IMG/VR virus record: IMGVR_UViG_3300027909_000028
Coordinates: 1 to 51,180 of that record
DNA length: 51,180 nucleotides
Origin: a virus
Direction: 5' to 3' (one strand)
Shown here: in pieces, positions 46 to 50,602 of the stretch
How positions within the stretch are numbered: the stretch's first letter is position 1
How the letters are laid out: every line of letters begins with the position of its first letter
The notes under the pieces: model-generated
What the model was told of the DNA's origin: nothing
Database searches by the model: none
The model's input: the letters and a program-made list of their open reading frames with translations, nothing else
Position numbers and translations under genes: made by a program

Positions 46-81
46 AAAAAGAAAGGGCCGGCCCTGTTCGGACCGGCCCTC
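46..81 (-). terminator. Rho-independent terminator of the left-end leftward genes
   Basis: Arms AGGGCCGG (54-61) and CCGGCCCT (73-80) form a perfect 8-bp stem. Read on the minus strand the hairpin lies just after the stop codon at 93 and is followed by a T-rich tract, the complement of AAAAAGAAA at 46-54. This is the textbook intrinsic terminator layout and would end leftward transcription coming from 1.05 kb. Confidence 0.85.
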
Positions 82-92
82 CTGTTCGGCCA

Positions 93-293
93 CTAGTTCA
101 GGTATGCGAGTTGCTCTGCCGGGATCCACAGCTCGTCGCCGGGCGTGAACTCCACCTCGCTGGTCGTGGGCGCCTCCGTACCTAGGTACGCGGCGTGGCA
201 GTGTACGTACGCCTCCAGGCCGTTGAAGCTACCTGTGTGACACACGTCCACGACCCATCCTGTTCGGATGTCCTGGGCTACTGGGACTGTCAT
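93..293 (-). CDS. Small protein of unknown function, hammerhead-led
   Basis: 66 residues, acidic in the second half (EVEFTPGDELWIPAEQL), with no membrane segment and no motif I recognise. The ATG is preceded by GTAGGAGG at ideal spacing. The gene is the last of the left-end leftward set: its stop is followed by a terminator (46-81), and its ribosome binding site lies directly 3' of a hammerhead ribozyme (308-360). The transcript would therefore be released as a monocistronic RNA with its own 5' hairpin. Function unknown; the coding call rests on the start signal and the isolated open frame. Confidence 0.75.
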   Translation of the reverse strand: MTVPVAQDIRTGWVVDVCHTGSFNGLEAYVHCHAAYLGTEAPTTSEVEFTPGDELWIPAEQLAYLN

Positions 294-307
294 GACGCCC
301 TCCTACG

Positions 308-360
308 GGACTCATCAGCACCGGTACCTTACCGGTGTACGTGCGTTGCACGTTTCGTCC
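308..360 (-). ncRNA. Type II hammerhead ribozyme (HHR1)
   Basis: On the minus strand the order is: stem II 5' arm GGAC (360-357), GAAA (356-353), stem III ACGTGC/GCACGT closed by AAC (353-339), cleavage residue A17 (338), stem I CACCGGT/ACCGGTG with a 5-base loop (337-319), core CTGATGA (318-312), and stem II 3' arm GTCC (311-308). Every universally conserved core base is present: C3, U4, G5, A6, G8, A9, G12, A13, A14, the A15.1-U16.1 pair, and G10.1-C11.1. The cleavage triplet is GUA, which obeys the NUH rule. Predicted cleavage lies between 338 and 337, about 45 bases upstream of the ATG at 293, leaving an mRNA that starts with the stem I hairpin followed by the ribosome binding site. Confidence 0.9.
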
Positions 361-373
361 TGGTAGGGGTGGA

Positions 374-401
374 AGGGTGGCCTCCTTTCGAAGGCCACCC
401 T
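374..401 (-). terminator. Intergenic hairpin after the 411-596 gene
   Basis: Perfect 10-bp stem AGGGTGGCCT (374-383) / AGGCCACCCT (392-401) with an 8-base loop, between the stop of the 411-596 gene and hammerhead HHR1. It lacks a clear T run on the minus strand, so it may act as a 3'-end stabiliser or weak terminator rather than a strong intrinsic terminator. Confidence 0.5.
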
Positions 402-410
402 CCCTGTACG

Positions 411-596
411 TTACCGGCTCGTCATGCTGTCAAGCCCTAATTGGACCTGACGCGCGACTTCGGCACGTTCCACTTCACCCTCACCGTCCGAGTACTGGTA
501 CTCGTCGACGAGTAGTGCCAACGCCTCGTACACGACGTTGACTTGATCGTCCGTGAGGACGATCTGGTGGAACGTCTCCAGTGGCTGACTGGACAT
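411..596 (-). CDS. Small acidic protein of unknown function, hammerhead-led
   Basis: 61 residues starting MSSQPLETFHQ. The chosen ATG at 596 has GGAGG four bases upstream; longer in-frame starts would run through the ribozyme leader and are rejected. The middle is predicted helical and acidic (VNVVYEALALLVDEYQYSD). No family recognised. It sits between hammerhead HHR2 upstream and a hairpin plus HHR1 downstream, so it is another self-contained cassette of the left-end leftward group. Confidence 0.7.
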   Translation of the reverse strand: MSSQPLETFHQIVLTDDQVNVVYEALALLVDEYQYSDGEGEVERAEVARQVQLGLDSMTSR

Positions 597-609
597 GATC
601 CCTCCTACG

Positions 610-669
610 GGTCTCATCAGCGCCGGCGCTTTACCGGCGGACACGGTACTCTCGTACCGTGTTTCGACC
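610..669 (-). ncRNA. Type II hammerhead ribozyme (HHR2)
   Basis: Same architecture as the element at 308-360 but with different stem sequences: stem II GGTC (669-666) / GACC (613-610), GAAA (665-662), a 9-bp stem III ACACGGTAC/GTACCGTGT with a GAGA tetraloop (662-641), cleavage residue C17 (640), stem I CGCCGG/CCGGCG (639-621), and core CTGATGA (620-614). The cleavage triplet is the preferred GUC. All conserved core bases are present. Because every stem differs from HHR1 while pairing is kept, the two copies support each other by covariation. Cleavage would fall between 640 and 639, about 44 bases upstream of the ATG at 596. Confidence 0.93.
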
Positions 670-45351: not shown

Positions 45352-45398
45352 GGACTCATTCAGCCAGCGCCTTACGCTGGGACCCAAAGGTTTCGTCC
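45352..45398 (-). ncRNA. Type II hammerhead ribozyme, core with one extra base (HHR4)
   Basis: Minus strand: stem II GGAC (45398-45395) / GTCC (45355-45352), GAAA (45394-45391), short stem III ACC-TTTG-GGT (45391-45382), C17 in a GUC triplet (45381), 6-bp stem I CCAGCG/CGCTGG with a 5-base loop (45380-45364), and core CTGAATGA (45363-45356). The core has one extra A compared with CTGATGA, so activity is uncertain, though all other conserved bases are in place. It lies between the terminator of the 45458 gene and the ATG at 45285. Confidence 0.75.
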
Positions 45399-45425
45399 TG
45401 TTTCACAAGCCCAAAACGTAGGATA

Positions 45426-45451
45426 GGCGGGACCTCCGGAGAGGTCCCGCC
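45426..45451 (-). terminator. Rho-independent terminator of the 45458-45817 gene
   Basis: Perfect 11-bp stem GGCGGGACCTC (45426-45436) / GAGGTCCCGCC (45441-45451) with a CGGA tetraloop, seven bases after the stop codon; on the minus strand TATCCTACGTTTTGGG follows, a modest T run. Confidence 0.75.
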
Positions 45452-45848: not shown

Positions 45849-45906
45849 GGACTCATCGGGACGGCTCCTTGCCGCCGACGCCTCGTGATGAGGAGGCGTT
45901 TCGTCC
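45849..45906 (-). ncRNA. Type II hammerhead ribozyme, core U4 replaced by C (HHR3)
   Basis: Minus strand: stem II GGAC (45906-45903) / GTCC (45852-45849), GAAA (45902-45899), 7-bp stem III ACGCCTC/GAGGCGT (45899-45878), C17 in a GUC triplet (45877), 6-bp stem I GGCGGC/GCCGTC with one G-U pair (45876-45860), and core CCGATGA (45859-45853). The conserved U4 is C, a change expected to weaken cleavage; the fold is otherwise complete. Predicted cleavage is about 60 bases upstream of the ATG at 45817. Confidence 0.8.
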
Positions 45907-46237: not shown

Positions 46238-46270
46238 GTCCCCTCCTAGGACTTGAAGGATTGCGTGAAC

Positions 46271-46294
46271 GGCTCGGACATCAAATGCCCGGCC
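46271..46294 (-). other. Leader hairpin with GCATTTGATGT core (copy 1)
   Basis: Minus strand GGCCGGGCAT-TTG-ATGTCCGAGCC: stems GGC/GCC, CGG/CCG and CAT/ATG around a TTG loop. Copies at 46612-46630 and 46873-46889 keep the GCAT-TTG-ATGT core while the outer pairs change together (GAG/CTC, CGA/TCG). Located in the leader of the 45914-46237 gene. Confidence 0.65.
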
Positions 46295-46304
46295 GCTCGG
46301 TCCG

Positions 46305-46589
46305 TTAGGACACGTCGAGGTGTTCGGCGAGTCCGCTGTCTTGCATGCGGAACAGAATGCTCGACACATTCCCCAGCGTCAAGTGAAGGAACGCTTCGTC
46401 CTCGACGCTGAATCTTACGTCGCCGTCCATCTTGGTGCTGAGGTCGTGCTCCAGCTTCTCCTTGTACGCTCGGAGGGCAAACCAGATGGTGCGCACGTCC
46501 TCTTCATGCATGTCCAACGTCCGTACACGTTTACCGTTCCAGTAGTTCAAGTGCGAGAACGTGGACTTGCGTTCCTGTTCCTTAGGCAT
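46305..46589 (-). CDS. Protein of unknown function
   Basis: 94 residues from the ATG at 46589, directly after CACGAAAGGAGGCAGAC. Helical, charged (HEEDVRTIWFALRAYKEKLE, then FLHLTLGNVSSILFRMQDSG). A longer frame extends upstream but would cross the leader hairpin. No family recognised. Confidence 0.7.
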   Translation of the reverse strand: MPKEQERKSTFSHLNYWNGKRVRTLDMHEEDVRTIWFALRAYKEKLEHDLSTKMDGDVRFSVEDEAFLHLTLGNVSSILFRMQDSGLAEHLDVS

Positions 46590-46611
46590 GTCTGCCTCCT
46601 TTCGTGGACGC

Positions 46612-46630
46612 GGAGACATCAAATGCCTCC
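46612..46630 (-). other. Leader hairpin with GCATTTGATGT core (copy 2)
   Basis: Minus strand GGAGGCAT-TTG-ATGTCTCC: GGAG/CTCC outer stem, CAT/ATG inner stem. It precedes CACGAAAGGAGG, the ribosome binding site of the 46305-46589 gene, by about ten bases. Confidence 0.65.
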
Positions 46631-46641
46631 AACGCCCCAGC

Positions 46642-46845
46642 CTATCTCTTGACTCTGATTCCGAGGACAGGCTTGTTTGGATCTTTGTCACTCGGCGTGA
46701 CGTACTGAATGTTCCGATCGTCGTTAGCCTTGATCTCGGCCTCAGTGAACCAGCCCGATCCAAGCGACTCCGTTCGGAATACAGCGCCGTCGCGCCATTC
46801 GGTGATCCGTACCTTTTCTCGGTACACCTCATACTCTTGGGTCAC
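46642..46845 (-). CDS. Small protein of unknown function
   Basis: 67 residues from a GTG at 46845 with AAGGGAGGTGCACC in front. MTQEYEVYREKVRITEWRDG, then SLGSGWFTEAEIKANDDRNI and a basic end (VLGIRVKR). Probably a compact alpha/beta fold. Unknown function. Confidence 0.65.
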   Translation of the reverse strand: MTQEYEVYREKVRITEWRDGAVFRTESLGSGWFTEAEIKANDDRNIQYVTPSDKDPNKPVLGIRVKR

Positions 46846-46872
46846 GGTGCACCTCCCTTCCGTGGACGGACG

Positions 46873-46889
46873 CGAACATCAAATGCTCG
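46873..46889 (-). other. Leader hairpin with GCATTTGATGT core (copy 3)
   Basis: Minus strand CGAGCAT-TTG-ATGTTCG: CGA/TCG outer and CAT/ATG inner stems. It lies about 25 bases before the GTG at 46845 and is followed by CCACGGAAGGGAGG. Confidence 0.6.
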
Positions 46890-46901
46890 GCCGCCCCCTG
46901 C

Positions 46902-47111
46902 CTAACCGCCAGAACACGTGCATGAACCGACGTTCGACATCAGCACGTTGCAGTTAGGACAGAGTTTGTTACGCTTGCGTCTGTACCCGCCCATGAGCTT
47001 CGCCTCGGCCATGATGTCTAGCAACCACTCAGGGGGTTTGTGCCGCCCGTTCGGAAAGTTACCCTGCCGGGCGTTCTCGTGCTCTGCGTGGATCTGAGGC
47101 GGTGTTACCAT
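46902..47111 (-). CDS. Small zinc-ribbon-like protein
   Basis: 69 residues from the ATG at 47111 with GGAGGACAATC upstream. MVTPPQIHAEHENARQGNFP, then EWLLDIMAEAKLMGGYRRKR and the C-terminal LCPNCNVLMSNVGSCTCSGG with four cysteines. The basic YRRKRNK stretch before the CPNC pair suggests nucleic-acid contact. First gene after the promoter at 47159. Confidence 0.7.
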   Translation of the reverse strand: MVTPPQIHAEHENARQGNFPNGRHKPPEWLLDIMAEAKLMGGYRRKRNKLCPNCNVLMSNVGSCTCSGG

Positions 47112-47158: not shown

Positions 47159-47189
47159 ATTATAGCTCAGCCCCTATAGGACCTTTCAA
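47159..47189 (-). promoter_or_regulatory. Leftward promoter with conserved upstream block
   Basis: Minus strand TTGAAA (47189-47184) and TATAAT (47164-47159), 19-base spacer. Upstream lies AAAAAGATCTTGAAAAAATC, then CCAC and CGACCATCTTGAAAGG (about 47224-47182), a block almost repeated at the promoter near 50046. Confidence 0.75.
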
Positions 47190-47226
47190 GATGGTCGAGC
47201 CAGTGGATTTTTTCAAGATCTTTTTC

Positions 47227-47627: not shown

Positions 47628-47721
47628 CGCTCTTTGCGTGCCCGTAGGAAGGCGCGAGGCAGGTTGCTTCGATGCTACGACCCTACTCACGACGGTGAAT
47701 ATGTCGCCCACCTCCCTCGTG

Positions 47722-47955
47722 CTAGACCTTACGGTTCAGGTAAGGTGTCGTGCCCTGGTCCACTGGTTCGATCGAGATGACCCAGTGGTCAGGTAGTGCT
47801 TGCGTGCCTGCCACCGGCCTGGCGCTCCAGGTCGACTCGGTGGTTCCGCTTCGACCCAGGTATAGCATCACGGCCTCGCGCTCCACCTTCTGGGTGTCGC
47901 TCTTGTACCGGATGCGATACATGTTTCCCTGGACCGGGATAAACCTAGGCATCAT
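47722..47955 (-). CDS. Small protein of unknown function
   Basis: 77 residues from the ATG at 47955, directly after CACGAAAGGAGGCAGTC. MMPRFIPVQGNMYRIRYKSD, then QKVEREAVMLYLGRSGTTES and a beta-rich end; it looks like a small SH3-like beta barrel. Longer frames cross the leader hairpin and are rejected. Confidence 0.7.
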   Translation of the reverse strand: MMPRFIPVQGNMYRIRYKSDTQKVEREAVMLYLGRSGTTESTWSARPVAGTQALPDHWVISIEPVDQGTTPYLNRKV

Positions 47956-47972
47956 GACTGCCTCCTTTCGTG

Positions 47973-48002
47973 AGGGTAGGTCCGCTCTGAGGTGCCTACC
48001 CT
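47973..48002 (-). other. Leader hairpin AGGGTAGG/CCTACCCT before CACGAAAGGAGG
   Basis: 8-bp stem (47973-47980 with 47995-48002), 14-base loop, followed on the minus strand by CACGAAAGGAGG and the ATG at 47955. The homologous leader at 48621-48654 has AGGGCAGG/CCTGCCCT: a compensatory T-A to C-G change. Confidence 0.65.
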
Positions 48003-48008
48003 CCCTTG

Positions 48009-48227
48009 TTACTGGATCGCTCGATCGTTCCCGCGTCCGTCGATGAGACGGAGCTTCTTCGGGTCGAAGTCGATCGAGATCACCGGACAGTTGCCTTCGT
48101 ACCAGTCGTTCGACTCGAACGTTAGGGTCAAGTTCCCTACCTCTGGGAAGTAGAAAGTCTGGAACTCGGTCTTTCCGTCCTCCTCGGTAAGCCGGCCGTA
48201 GACGTGGAACTCGTGTCGCTGGTCCAT
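48009..48227 (-). CDS. Small beta-rich protein
   Basis: 72 residues from the ATG at 48227, directly after CACGAAAGGAGGTCGCT. Strands are obvious: RHEFHVYGRLTEEDGKTEFQ, TFYFPEVGNLTLTFESNDWY and CPVISIDFDPKKLRLIDGRG. No motif recognised; it belongs to the series of insulated right-arm genes. Confidence 0.7.
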   Translation of the reverse strand: MDQRHEFHVYGRLTEEDGKTEFQTFYFPEVGNLTLTFESNDWYEGNCPVISIDFDPKKLRLIDGRGNDRAIQ

Positions 48228-48244
48228 AGCGACCTCCTTTCGTG

Positions 48245-48277
48245 CCGGCGAGGTAAACGTGGAGCGGTCCCCGCCGG
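48245..48277 (-). other. Leader hairpin before CACGAAAGGAGG
   Basis: CCGGCGAGG (48245-48253) pairs with CCCCGCCGG (48269-48277) at eight of nine positions; on the minus strand the stem is followed by CACGAAAGGAGG and the ATG at 48227. Confidence 0.6.
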
Positions 48278-48286
48278 ACCATGGCG

Positions 48287-48601
48287 TTACTTCTGAGGCT
48301 CGAACCACTCCCGAATATCGATCCTCAGCCGGTCCTTGCGAAGGACGACGGTCACACGAAGTTCCGTGTCCTCCGCCCACATCATTGCCTTGTGGGCCTT
48401 CTTCCCGAACGAGTCGGAAGTACTGACCCACCCATAGTCCTCGACCAGGTTGATAAGGACCTGTTCGGCTTTGGACAGCCCGACCTCTTGGTCCTCGAGT
48501 TCGGTCGCCTTGCGCACCTCGTCGAGGGCTCGGTCGAAGAAACCGAGTGTCGAACTGTTCAGGGTGATGTGGACCCCTTTGTTGCTCGGTGCTAGTGGCA
48601 T
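48287..48601 (-). CDS. Protein of unknown function
   Basis: 104 residues: GVHITLNSSTLGFFDRALDE, VRKATELEDQEVGLSKAEQV, LINLVEDYGWVSTSDSFGKK and a strand-rich end (LRVTVVLRKDRLRIDIREWF). Mixed alpha/beta fold. ATG at 48601 comes directly after CACGAAAGGAGGTGGCACC. Confidence 0.7.
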   Translation of the reverse strand: MPLAPSNKGVHITLNSSTLGFFDRALDEVRKATELEDQEVGLSKAEQVLINLVEDYGWVSTSDSFGKKAHKAMMWAEDTELRVTVVLRKDRLRIDIREWFEPQK

Positions 48602-48620
48602 GGTGCCACCTCCTTTCGTG

Positions 48621-48654
48621 AGGGCAGGAGCTACTTCGATGCTTACCCTGCCCT
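48621..48654 (-). other. Leader hairpin AGGGCAGG/CCTGCCCT before CACGAAAGGAGG
   Basis: 8-bp stem (48621-48628 with 48647-48654) with the loop containing AAGCATCGAAGTAG, followed on the minus strand by CACGAAAGGAGG. A related leader with one mismatch (AGGACAGG/CCTGCCCT) stands at 48920-48962, also with GTAGCATCGAAGCA in its loop. Confidence 0.65.
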
Positions 48655-48661
48655 ACCTGGT

Positions 48662-48880
48662 TCAGAACGTCAGGATCACTACACCGGGGAAGTTGTCCTC
48701 AAGGGCCGCGTTCCGACACCACTCGCAGATCCGCTCCATGAACACGACTTCCGTCGCCCCATCGGTGCAGGTCTGGAGATGTACGGTGTTTAACAGTGCA
48801 GGTCGTTCCTCACAAAACCCACACGGGCTAGATTCCGTTGCGGGCTGGAGGTCGATGACGTCCTTCTTGGATACCTGCAT
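48662..48880 (-). CDS. Small zinc-knuckle protein
   Basis: 72 residues: DLQPATESSPCGFCEERPAL, then NTVHLQTCTDG and VFMERICEWCRNAALEDNFP. Two CxxC pairs plus a His and a further Cys suggest one zinc. ATG at 48880 follows AGAAGGGAACGGTC. A minus-oriented composite repeat (CCCGTGTGG at 48827, CTGTTAAACA at 48796) lies within the coding sequence. Confidence 0.7.
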   Translation of the reverse strand: MQVSKKDVIDLQPATESSPCGFCEERPALLNTVHLQTCTDGATEVVFMERICEWCRNAALEDNFPGVVILTF

Positions 48881-48969
48881 GACCGTTCCCTTCTAGTAGG
48901 GGTAGGATGTGCGGTCGTGAGGACAGGTGCTTCGATGCTACGGGCACAAGCCCGCCTGCCCTCGCCTTG

Positions 48970-49163: not shown

Positions 49164-49636
49164 TGACAAGTACATAAGGACCGAGCCGGTCAGGTAATGC
49201 GGGTCTTGCTACTTGGTCGTGTGCTTGGTCACGAACTTAGTCGCGAAAGCCACGACCTCCTCGTGTGCGTAGCGCTTGACGCCCTTCGCACCCTTCACGA
49301 TGAGCCCGTTCCGATCGTAGTTGTACATCATCTGCGGGCGGACGGTGCGCTCGGATCCCAGGACCTCGAACACCGTGTTGATCACCGAGTGAATCTGGTA
49401 CGGGCTGACGGTCTCCGGGAGCGCCTCGACGACCTCCCGCACCAAACCCTCGATGTCAGTGACCTCGCCGACCACCGCTGCCGGGGTCTCGTCGATCATG
49501 GTGTTCTCCGTGCCGTCGATCTCCGCCATCTCGTCCACAGACTCCACGGTCAGGTTCTCGTTCATGACAGTTCCCTTCGTTTTGGTGAGGTTGGGTTTGA
49601 AACGAACTGCCCGGCTCGGTTCTTATGTACTTGTCA
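49164..49636. repeat. 26-bp inverted repeat enclosing the 49209-49565 gene
   Basis: The segments 49164-49189 (TGACAAGTACATAAGG then ACCGAGCCGG) and 49611-49636 (CCGGCTCGGT then TCTTATGTACTTGTCA) are inverted copies identical at 25 of 26 positions. They flank the coding region by about 20 bases downstream and 46 bases upstream, so the mRNA could close on itself. Confidence 0.88.
49209..49565 (-). CDS. PQM-Y-Y family protein, right-end paralog
   Basis: 118 residues with acidic N-terminus (ESVDEMAEIDGTENTMIDET) and the shared block SPYQIHSVINTVFEVLGSER plus VRPQMMYNYDRNGLIVKGA, then a basic helix (VVAFATKFVTKHTTK). It is clearly paralogous to 719-1048 and related to 42591-43091. ATG at 49565 follows GAAGGGAACTGTC. 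Codon use is strongly G/C-ended. Enclosed by a 26-bp inverted repeat. Function unknown. Confidence 0.78.
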   Translation of the reverse strand: MNENLTVESVDEMAEIDGTENTMIDETPAAVVGEVTDIEGLVREVVEALPETVSPYQIHSVINTVFEVLGSERTVRPQMMYNYDRNGLIVKGAKGVKRYAHEEVVAFATKFVTKHTTK

Positions 49637-50045: not shown

Positions 50046-50074
50046 TATATAGCAGCCCCCCTAGGGGGCTTCAA
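50046..50074 (-). promoter_or_regulatory. Leftward promoter with conserved upstream block
   Basis: Minus strand TTGAAG (50074-50069), a 17-base spacer holding the palindrome CCCCCTAGGGGG, and TATATA (50051-50046; TATACT lies two bases further). Upstream AAAAGATCTTCAAAAATCC, then CCGACCATCTTGAAG parallels the promoter at 47159. Confidence 0.75.
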
Positions 50075-50207
50075 GATGGTCGGATAGGTGGATTTTTGAA
50101 GATCTTTTGCACACACCCTTCCGGTTTGGTTAGGGACCTTGGTAAACAAAACCCCTAAACGCGTACACACCGCCCACAGGGCCGGGGTCTTGCTTTGGAT
50201 CTCCGTG

Positions 50208-50495: not shown

Positions 50496-50526
50496 ATTAT
50501 ATAGTAGCCCCCATAGAGGGCCACAA
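50496..50526 (-). promoter_or_regulatory. Leftward promoter
   Basis: Minus strand TTGTGG (50526-50521), then a 17-base spacer to TATATA (50503-50498) or 19 bases to TATAAT (50501-50496). Upstream AAAAAATTCCACC and GACGGACATCTTGTGG are diverged versions of the upstream block seen at 47159 and 50046. Drives the 50440 gene. Confidence 0.7.
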
Positions 50527-50602
50527 GATGTCCGTCAGGGTGGAATTTTTTCCCAGTCCGTCCCTGGAGAGTCGGCCCCCTGGTGGGTGAGGTATTACCT
50601 AT

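Follow-up and report, generated by a model that had tools for sequence, protein, structure and literature searches.

A complete type II hammerhead (HH-B) lies between two genes at the left end of an uncultured tailed phage genome, and we consider it likely to be a self-cleaving spacer ribozyme that gives every gene a short mRNA of its own with a standard leader. Its sequence, structure, covariation, and position argue for this reading, under which the RNA would be cut in the cell, would acquire defined ends, and would bring the phage some benefit. The window, that is, the whole stretch of DNA analysed (51,180 bp, 56% GC), encodes terminase, portal, capsid, and tape measure proteins matched by PHROGs, and the closest named relatives of its terminase are those of actinobacteriophages, at about 32-38% identity.

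Structure of HH-B and comparison with HH-A

HH-B contains the conserved core CUGANGA and GAAA, an NUH triplet, and a three-helix junction in which A15.1-U16.1 closes stem III (Table 1). Stems I and III are closed by loops (627-633 and 650-653), and the ends lie in the open stem II, as in the type II permutation. The stem III strands CACGGUAC (661-654) and GUACCGUG (649-642) surround GAGA (653-650) and are followed by U641 and C640. Because hammerheads cleave 3' of NUH, the cut is predicted between 640 and 639. All of these features, namely a complete hammerhead at 610-669 with this core, a GUC triplet, a 9-bp stem III, a GAGA loop, and this cleavage site, are as the first-pass annotation had claimed.

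Table 1. Hammerheads and neighbouring features of the window
Feature	Position	Strand	Remarks
Intrinsic-terminator-like hairpin	52..82	-	closes three-gene operon
Gene 1, 66-aa protein	93..293	-	downstream of HH-A; without database match
Shine-Dalgarno AGGAGG of gene 1	299..304	-	read from sequence
HH-A, complete type II hammerhead, GUA triplet	308..360	-	predicted cleavage 338/337; descriptor, fold, covariance model
GC-rich hairpin, 15 bp	371..404	-	between gene 2 stop and HH-A; from fold
Gene 2, 61-aa protein	411..596	-	directly downstream of HH-B; without database match
Shine-Dalgarno AGGAGG	601..606	-	3 nt after HH-B stem II; read from sequence
HH-B, complete type II hammerhead	610..669	-	direct reading, pairing descriptor, fold, covariance model; Rfam RF02276 sub-threshold
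HH-B stem II	666-669/610-613	-	GGUC/GACC
HH-B stem I	634-639/621-626, loop 627-633	-	CGCCGG/CCGGCG; loop UAAAGCG
HH-B stem III	654-662/641-649, loop 650-653	-	9 bp counting A15.1-U16.1; loop GAGA
HH-B core	CUGAUGA 620-614, GAAA 665-662	-	direct reading and pairing descriptor
HH-B triplet GUC	642-640	-	NUH before cut; direct reading
Predicted cleavage site	639..640	-	2',3'-cyclic phosphate on C640, 5'-OH on C639; from NUH rule
Gene 3, 109 aa	719..1048	-	upstream of HH-B; stop 49 nt before HH-B
HH3, hammerhead-like element with weak stem III and a one-base insertion in its core (CUGAAUGA)	45352..45398	-	covariance model; ahead of gene 45285-45064
HH4, type II hammerhead, core CCGAUGA (U4C), GUC	45849..45906	-	predicted cut 45877/45876; covariance model; before gene 45817-45458

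A pairing-based descriptor matched only HH-B and the copy at 308-360 (HH-A) in the 51 kb, with 0 matches in 100 first-order Markov shuffles. The three-way-junction hammerhead is the MFE structure of the isolated HH-B 60-mer (-30.1 kcal/mol, z = -4.9), and 0 of 200 shuffles are as stable. A covariance model built from 46 hammerheads of other phages, none of them from the window, scores HH-B at 55.2 bits (E = 4.7e-18 over 255 kb) and HH-A at 50.7 bits (E = 2.7e-16). The Rfam model RF02276 detects HH-B only, at 27.4 bits (E = 0.005), under its gathering score of 37, which is a database cut-off and not a catalytic requirement.

Inspection of HH-B revealed no pseudoknot of at least 4 pairs between loop I and the 3' tail, where only GCG/CGU (3 pairs, one wobble) can form; this pseudoknot is found in the majority of type II hammerheads and is not required (PMC3088659). 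Loop I fits a GUNANG class that is common to many viral contigs, and the exact tail motif CTGATGAGNCCCGTAGGAGG has no match in viral contigs. When HH-B is folded with its flanks (about 76-82 nt, RNAfold), the MFE structure departs from the hammerhead, and AUGA of the core pairs with UCAU at the start codon instead. This alternative pairing is no stronger than in tail shuffles, and co-transcriptional folding may bypass it.

The stems of the two complete copies had been described as unrelated and as strong internal covariation, which is accurate for stem III, the sole stem that differs wholly, but overstated for the other two. One compensatory swap separates the two versions of stem II (GGUC/GACC in HH-B versus GGAC/GUCC in HH-A), and in stem I a single pair among the first six is changed (CGCCGG/CCGGCG versus CACCGG/CCGGUG), so the covariation is real but smaller than claimed. 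The preferred GUC triplet is likewise present in HH-B, while HH-A has GUA. CCCGUAGGAGGG is common to both tails, and loop I is similar too. The near-identical stems I and II and the common tail indicate that HH-A and HH-B are probably old, diverged duplicates.

The left-end operon and two weaker copies

The left end of the window is a leftward three-gene block, in the order gene 3, HH-B, gene 2, hairpin, HH-A, gene 1, and terminator-like hairpin, so HH-B and HH-A flank gene 2 on one strand, as in the phage arrays of Perreault et al. The terminator-like hairpin is weak evidence by itself because shuffles yield a similar number of such sites. We found no homologues of the gene 2 protein in viral contigs and no DNA relatives of the window's left end in the named phages searched. 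Gene 3 is a paralogue of the gene at 49209-49565 on the minus strand (54% over 83 aa), and it has homologues in the related contigs L001, L003, L006, L015, and L024. The two paralogues encode small proteins that share a conserved YNYDRNGLIVKGAKG stretch. Homologues of this protein also occur in the hammerhead-bearing phage contigs L048, L064, L081, L108, and L122, and contigs L517, L518, and L520, recovered via the gene 3-type protein alone, carry hammerheads too.

The first-pass annotation counted two hammerheads in the window, and the covariance model gives four, the other two (HH3 and HH4) lying at 45.4-45.9 kb on the same strand as HH-A and HH-B, with altered cores. The extra base of HH3 sits after A6, and both types of change, A6 insertion and U4C, are described as low-activity variants (PMC3088659), so HH3 and HH4 may be decayed copies. 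An extra strong hairpin just past the upstream stop codon precedes both HH-A (371-404) and HH3 (about 45420-45450), and these hairpins may protect the new 3' end of the upstream message.

Placement of hammerheads across phage contigs

We searched viral contigs with a pattern made of the type II core and a fixed GAC/GTC stem II, ignoring the flanks; the resulting contig sets are not random samples, and the contigs may be related, with only exact-sequence duplicates removed. Among the matches listed, 135 of the 163 distinct full hammerheads (83%) are followed within 60 nt by an SD, a start codon, and an ORF (131 with ATG), compared with 614/3260 random same-strand positions (19%) and 12/163 on the opposite strand (7%); a cruder gene caller, with controls placed outside called genes, gives 112/175 versus 192/726. 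Stem II and the start codon are a median of 24.5 nt apart (interquartile range 20-28) among the matches listed. When both pattern sets are pooled (302 elements), 213 elements (71%) have GAAA no more than 12 nt from the stop of an upstream ORF on the same strand, versus 97/1510 random positions, and all 76 of the 76 loci with at least two copies carry them on a single strand at a median spacing of 556 nt, again among the matches listed.

A pattern combining the core with an SD returned full hammerheads in 112 of 136 distinct viral matches, versus 7/2720 with shuffled arms, among the matches listed. The same pattern in bacterial genomes gives mostly noise (22/121 full hammerheads among the matches listed, three of them Streptomyces loci) and was set aside. 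Covariation counts among the collected hammerheads are partly built in, because pairing was a selection criterion. The phage hammerheads precede a diverse set of small genes (median about 95 aa), and the few of these with matches include DUF932, HNH endonuclease, GroES, and host-nuclease-inhibitor families, among the matches listed. The predicted openness of the SD in 219 phage elements is 0.57 in the 3' product versus 0.52 in the precursor (p 0.002) and 0.46 behind random upstream sequence, among the matches listed; the SD is slightly more open after the predicted cut and clearly more open than behind random sequence, which fits the expectation for an insulator.

Hammerheads of types I and III also precede phage genes, though less tightly. 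An SD and start codon follow 49/119 and 4/25 of them, respectively, and an upstream stop codon precedes 43/119 and 1/25, among the matches listed in a non-random contig sample from which only exact duplicates were removed. This weakens the case for a special status of type II based on the hairpin that each of its two products keeps at the end.

In the related phage contig L001, whose terminase is 71% identical, a type II hammerhead (49.2 bits with the covariance model) occupies the same side and orientation; its first nucleotide is also the final base of the upstream stop codon, and AGGAGGA follows it directly. The spacer of HH-B, 49 nt past the gene 3 stop, exceeds that of most phages. No hammerhead was found in most phages with a related terminase, and none that is convincing in the named actinophages with related terminases, where a 15-bit match in Indlulamithi was treated as chance, indicating that the hammerhead is dispensable.

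Contigs from bacterial genomes (L270, L290, L312, and L308; Streptomyces and Acidimicrobiaceae) also show the order hammerhead, SD, and ATG. Three Streptomyces loci have the SD leader CCGTAGGAGG after the hammerhead, which resembles CCCGTAGGAGG of the window. PHROG matches beside the Streptomyces hammerheads are a sigma factor in L270, a DNA polymerase and a sigma factor in L290, and only an excisionase in L312, and L308 has four hammerheads in a row, one of them before an anti-restriction gene.

Proposed function, rival explanations, and known systems

We propose that HH-B folds while the transcript emerges and cuts it between 640 and 639. The gene 3 message would keep its own stop codon and have the stem III hairpin and a 2',3'-cyclic phosphate at its 3' end. 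The gene 2 message would open, with a 5'-OH, directly at the stem I hairpin and continue through a short unpaired segment to the SD and the start codon. HH-A would do likewise between genes 2 and 1. Cutting between genes is supported by the position of both copies between co-directional genes, and by phage elements that abut the upstream stop, precede an SD and start codon, keep to a single strand, and are spaced at gene-sized intervals. The tight SD spacing agrees no less well with the making of a defined 5' leader than with the mere separation of messages. The best reading of these placements is that phages repeatedly use hammerheads as punctuation between genes. If so, the mRNA ends of any phage with such an array should map to the predicted bases, directly behind stop codons and in front of SDs, and in mutants with a dead core the messages should be joined again.

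Such cleavage would free the translation and decay of each gene from those of its neighbour, and the arrangement would amount to a natural equivalent of RiboJ and the RBS insulators of synthetic biology. RiboJ consists of the sTRSV hammerhead plus an added hairpin. It is likewise a self-cleaving ribozyme between upstream RNA or promoter and RBS, it leaves a uniform 5'-OH leader, and it raises transcript and protein levels (PMC6206723). RiboJ differs in being engineered and placed after promoters, not between genes.

The competing explanations differ widely in plausibility. A chance hammerhead-like sequence might be suspected from the Rfam score under the gathering threshold, but the existence of two copies, a model E of about 1e-18, and 0 matches in 100 shuffles leave next to no room for it. 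If the three-way junction were a structural or protein-binding leader with incidental catalysis, one would expect what is seen in HH3 and HH4, which retain hairpins with weakened cores, and in the non-ribozyme hairpins that precede SDs on the same leftward strand (46270-46910 and 47650-48960); such a leader would not need the catalytic nucleotides, however, all of which are kept in HH-A and HH-B, and we find it very improbable. Hammerheads might also be neutral or selfish passengers, carried along with small phage genes and tolerated without serving the phage. Their patchy occurrence among relatives and the decayed cores of HH3 and HH4 would agree with this, but precise placement between stop codon and SD in unrelated phages and single-strand tandem arrays (76/76 among the matches listed) are unexpected for neutral elements, and pairing is kept despite the replacement of stem III, making passengers quite unlikely.

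A regulated leader, whose core strand would switch between forming the catalytic structure and pairing with the tail or the SD region, so that cleavage is coupled to translation or a signal, we judge unlikely, although part of the evidence speaks for it. In a subset of phage hammerheads (about a tenth of the elements among the matches listed), the tail after stem II reads NUCAG, complementary to CUGAN of the core, and its N covaries with N7 in 31/40 cases (permutation mean 19.1, p about 5e-5), N7=U facing A in 20, G in 3, and U in 2, and N7=C facing G in 10 and A in 1, among the matches listed. The tails of HH3 (GUUCAG, core CUGAAU) and HH4 (UCGG, core CCGA) match their own altered cores, and tail shuffles equal this pairing in 1.4% of 500 and 0/500, respectively. 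In a few phages the SD lies within the core, as CUGAGGAG..AUG, so that the RNA should not be able to fold as a ribozyme and bind the ribosome at the same time; these N7=G hammerheads, with CUGAGGAG just before AUG, occur in L526 (about 1550), L171, L536, L603, L617, and L619. On the other side, core:tail pairing over all elements is not enriched (0.333 vs 0.349 in shuffles, among the matches listed), the pairing in HH-A and HH-B is equalled by 0.23 and 0.48 of shuffles, and no ligand pocket or conserved insert was seen. We therefore rejected a global core:tail signal, leaving only the NUCAG subset, and also rejected a switch in HH-A and HH-B based on core pairing with the SD and start-codon region, which does no better than shuffles. 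The catalytic fold and core:tail pairing cannot coexist, so the pairing would serve either as a switch or, once the RNA has been cut, as a product trap, and we treat the covariation, read from sequence, as a lead and not as a result.

A broader proposal combines these elements. In many tailed phages, stop codon, ribozyme, SD, and start codon would form a standard module whose cleavage leaves a hairpin at both new ends, the 3' end of the upstream message and the 5' leader of the downstream one, and in a subset the core would refold with the tail (CUGAN:NUCAG), making cleavage irreversible and possibly controlling initiation. We offer this as a tentative possibility that is more doubtful than spacer cleavage by HH-B itself.

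The self-cleaving spacer reading of HH-B belongs to a known class. Perreault et al. (2011; PMC3088659) discovered natural type II hammerheads, found clusters flanking single phage genes, and proposed processing into single-gene mRNAs; they also showed that comparable tandem arrays cut themselves, both in vitro and in E. coli (PMC3088659). The first-pass suggestion that ribozymes cut a polycistronic RNA into single-gene units agrees with the genomic context but is not new, a defined 5' leader fits at least equally well, and HH-B is a further example of the intergenic processing already proposed in 2011. HH-B resembles RF02276 type II hammerheads (PMC3088659) in permutation, core, NUH site, phage context, and tandem copies flanking small genes, and differs in its 4-bp stem II, 9-bp stem III, GUNANG loop I, lack of the 4-bp loop I-tail pseudoknot, and score under the gathering cut-off.

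The prophage tandems of Agrobacterium tumefaciens, Azorhizobium, and Clostridium scindens similarly place several hammerheads around small genes on one transcript, and cleavage of their transcripts of about 2 kb has been shown (PMC3088659). They surround ardA and other genes, whereas in the window each complete copy is placed directly before an SD, within a small block of leftward genes. HHphage of haloviruses HF1/HF2 also lies shortly before a start codon (13 nt), with the mRNA 5' end mapped within 3 nt of the cut (PMC3088659); it differs in coming from an archaeal virus, with a variant core and a single copy before a helicase gene, and its close analogue HHmeta needs high salt. A 2017 review by De la Pena repeats the phage association and treats the role of prokaryotic hammerheads as an open question (PMC6155905), to which the placement statistics make one answer testable. 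Our literature search, which covered few subscription journals, found no paper quantifying the stop-ribozyme-SD-start layout or the core:tail covariation, and both the layout and the covariation of the subset appear under-described.

Other leaders of the window share motifs of their own. Intergenic hairpins before SDs at 46265-46300, 46600-46635, and 46870-46905 (minus strand) have a common top, GCAUUUGAUGU, on different, still-paired stems; the right-arm hairpins have no Rfam match, and the GCAUUUGAUGU hairpins are possibly an undescribed leader element. A second common hairpin tip, GCAUCGAAGC/U, occurs in three same-strand intergenic leaders at about 47665, 48635, and 48930 (minus strand), and several leaders near these hairpins (about 47665-48930) end in CACGAAAGGAGG. 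A 52-nt repeat, present in three copies at 47161-47212, 50046-50097, and 50498-50549, has the look of a minus-strand promoter (TTGAA.., TATAAT-like).
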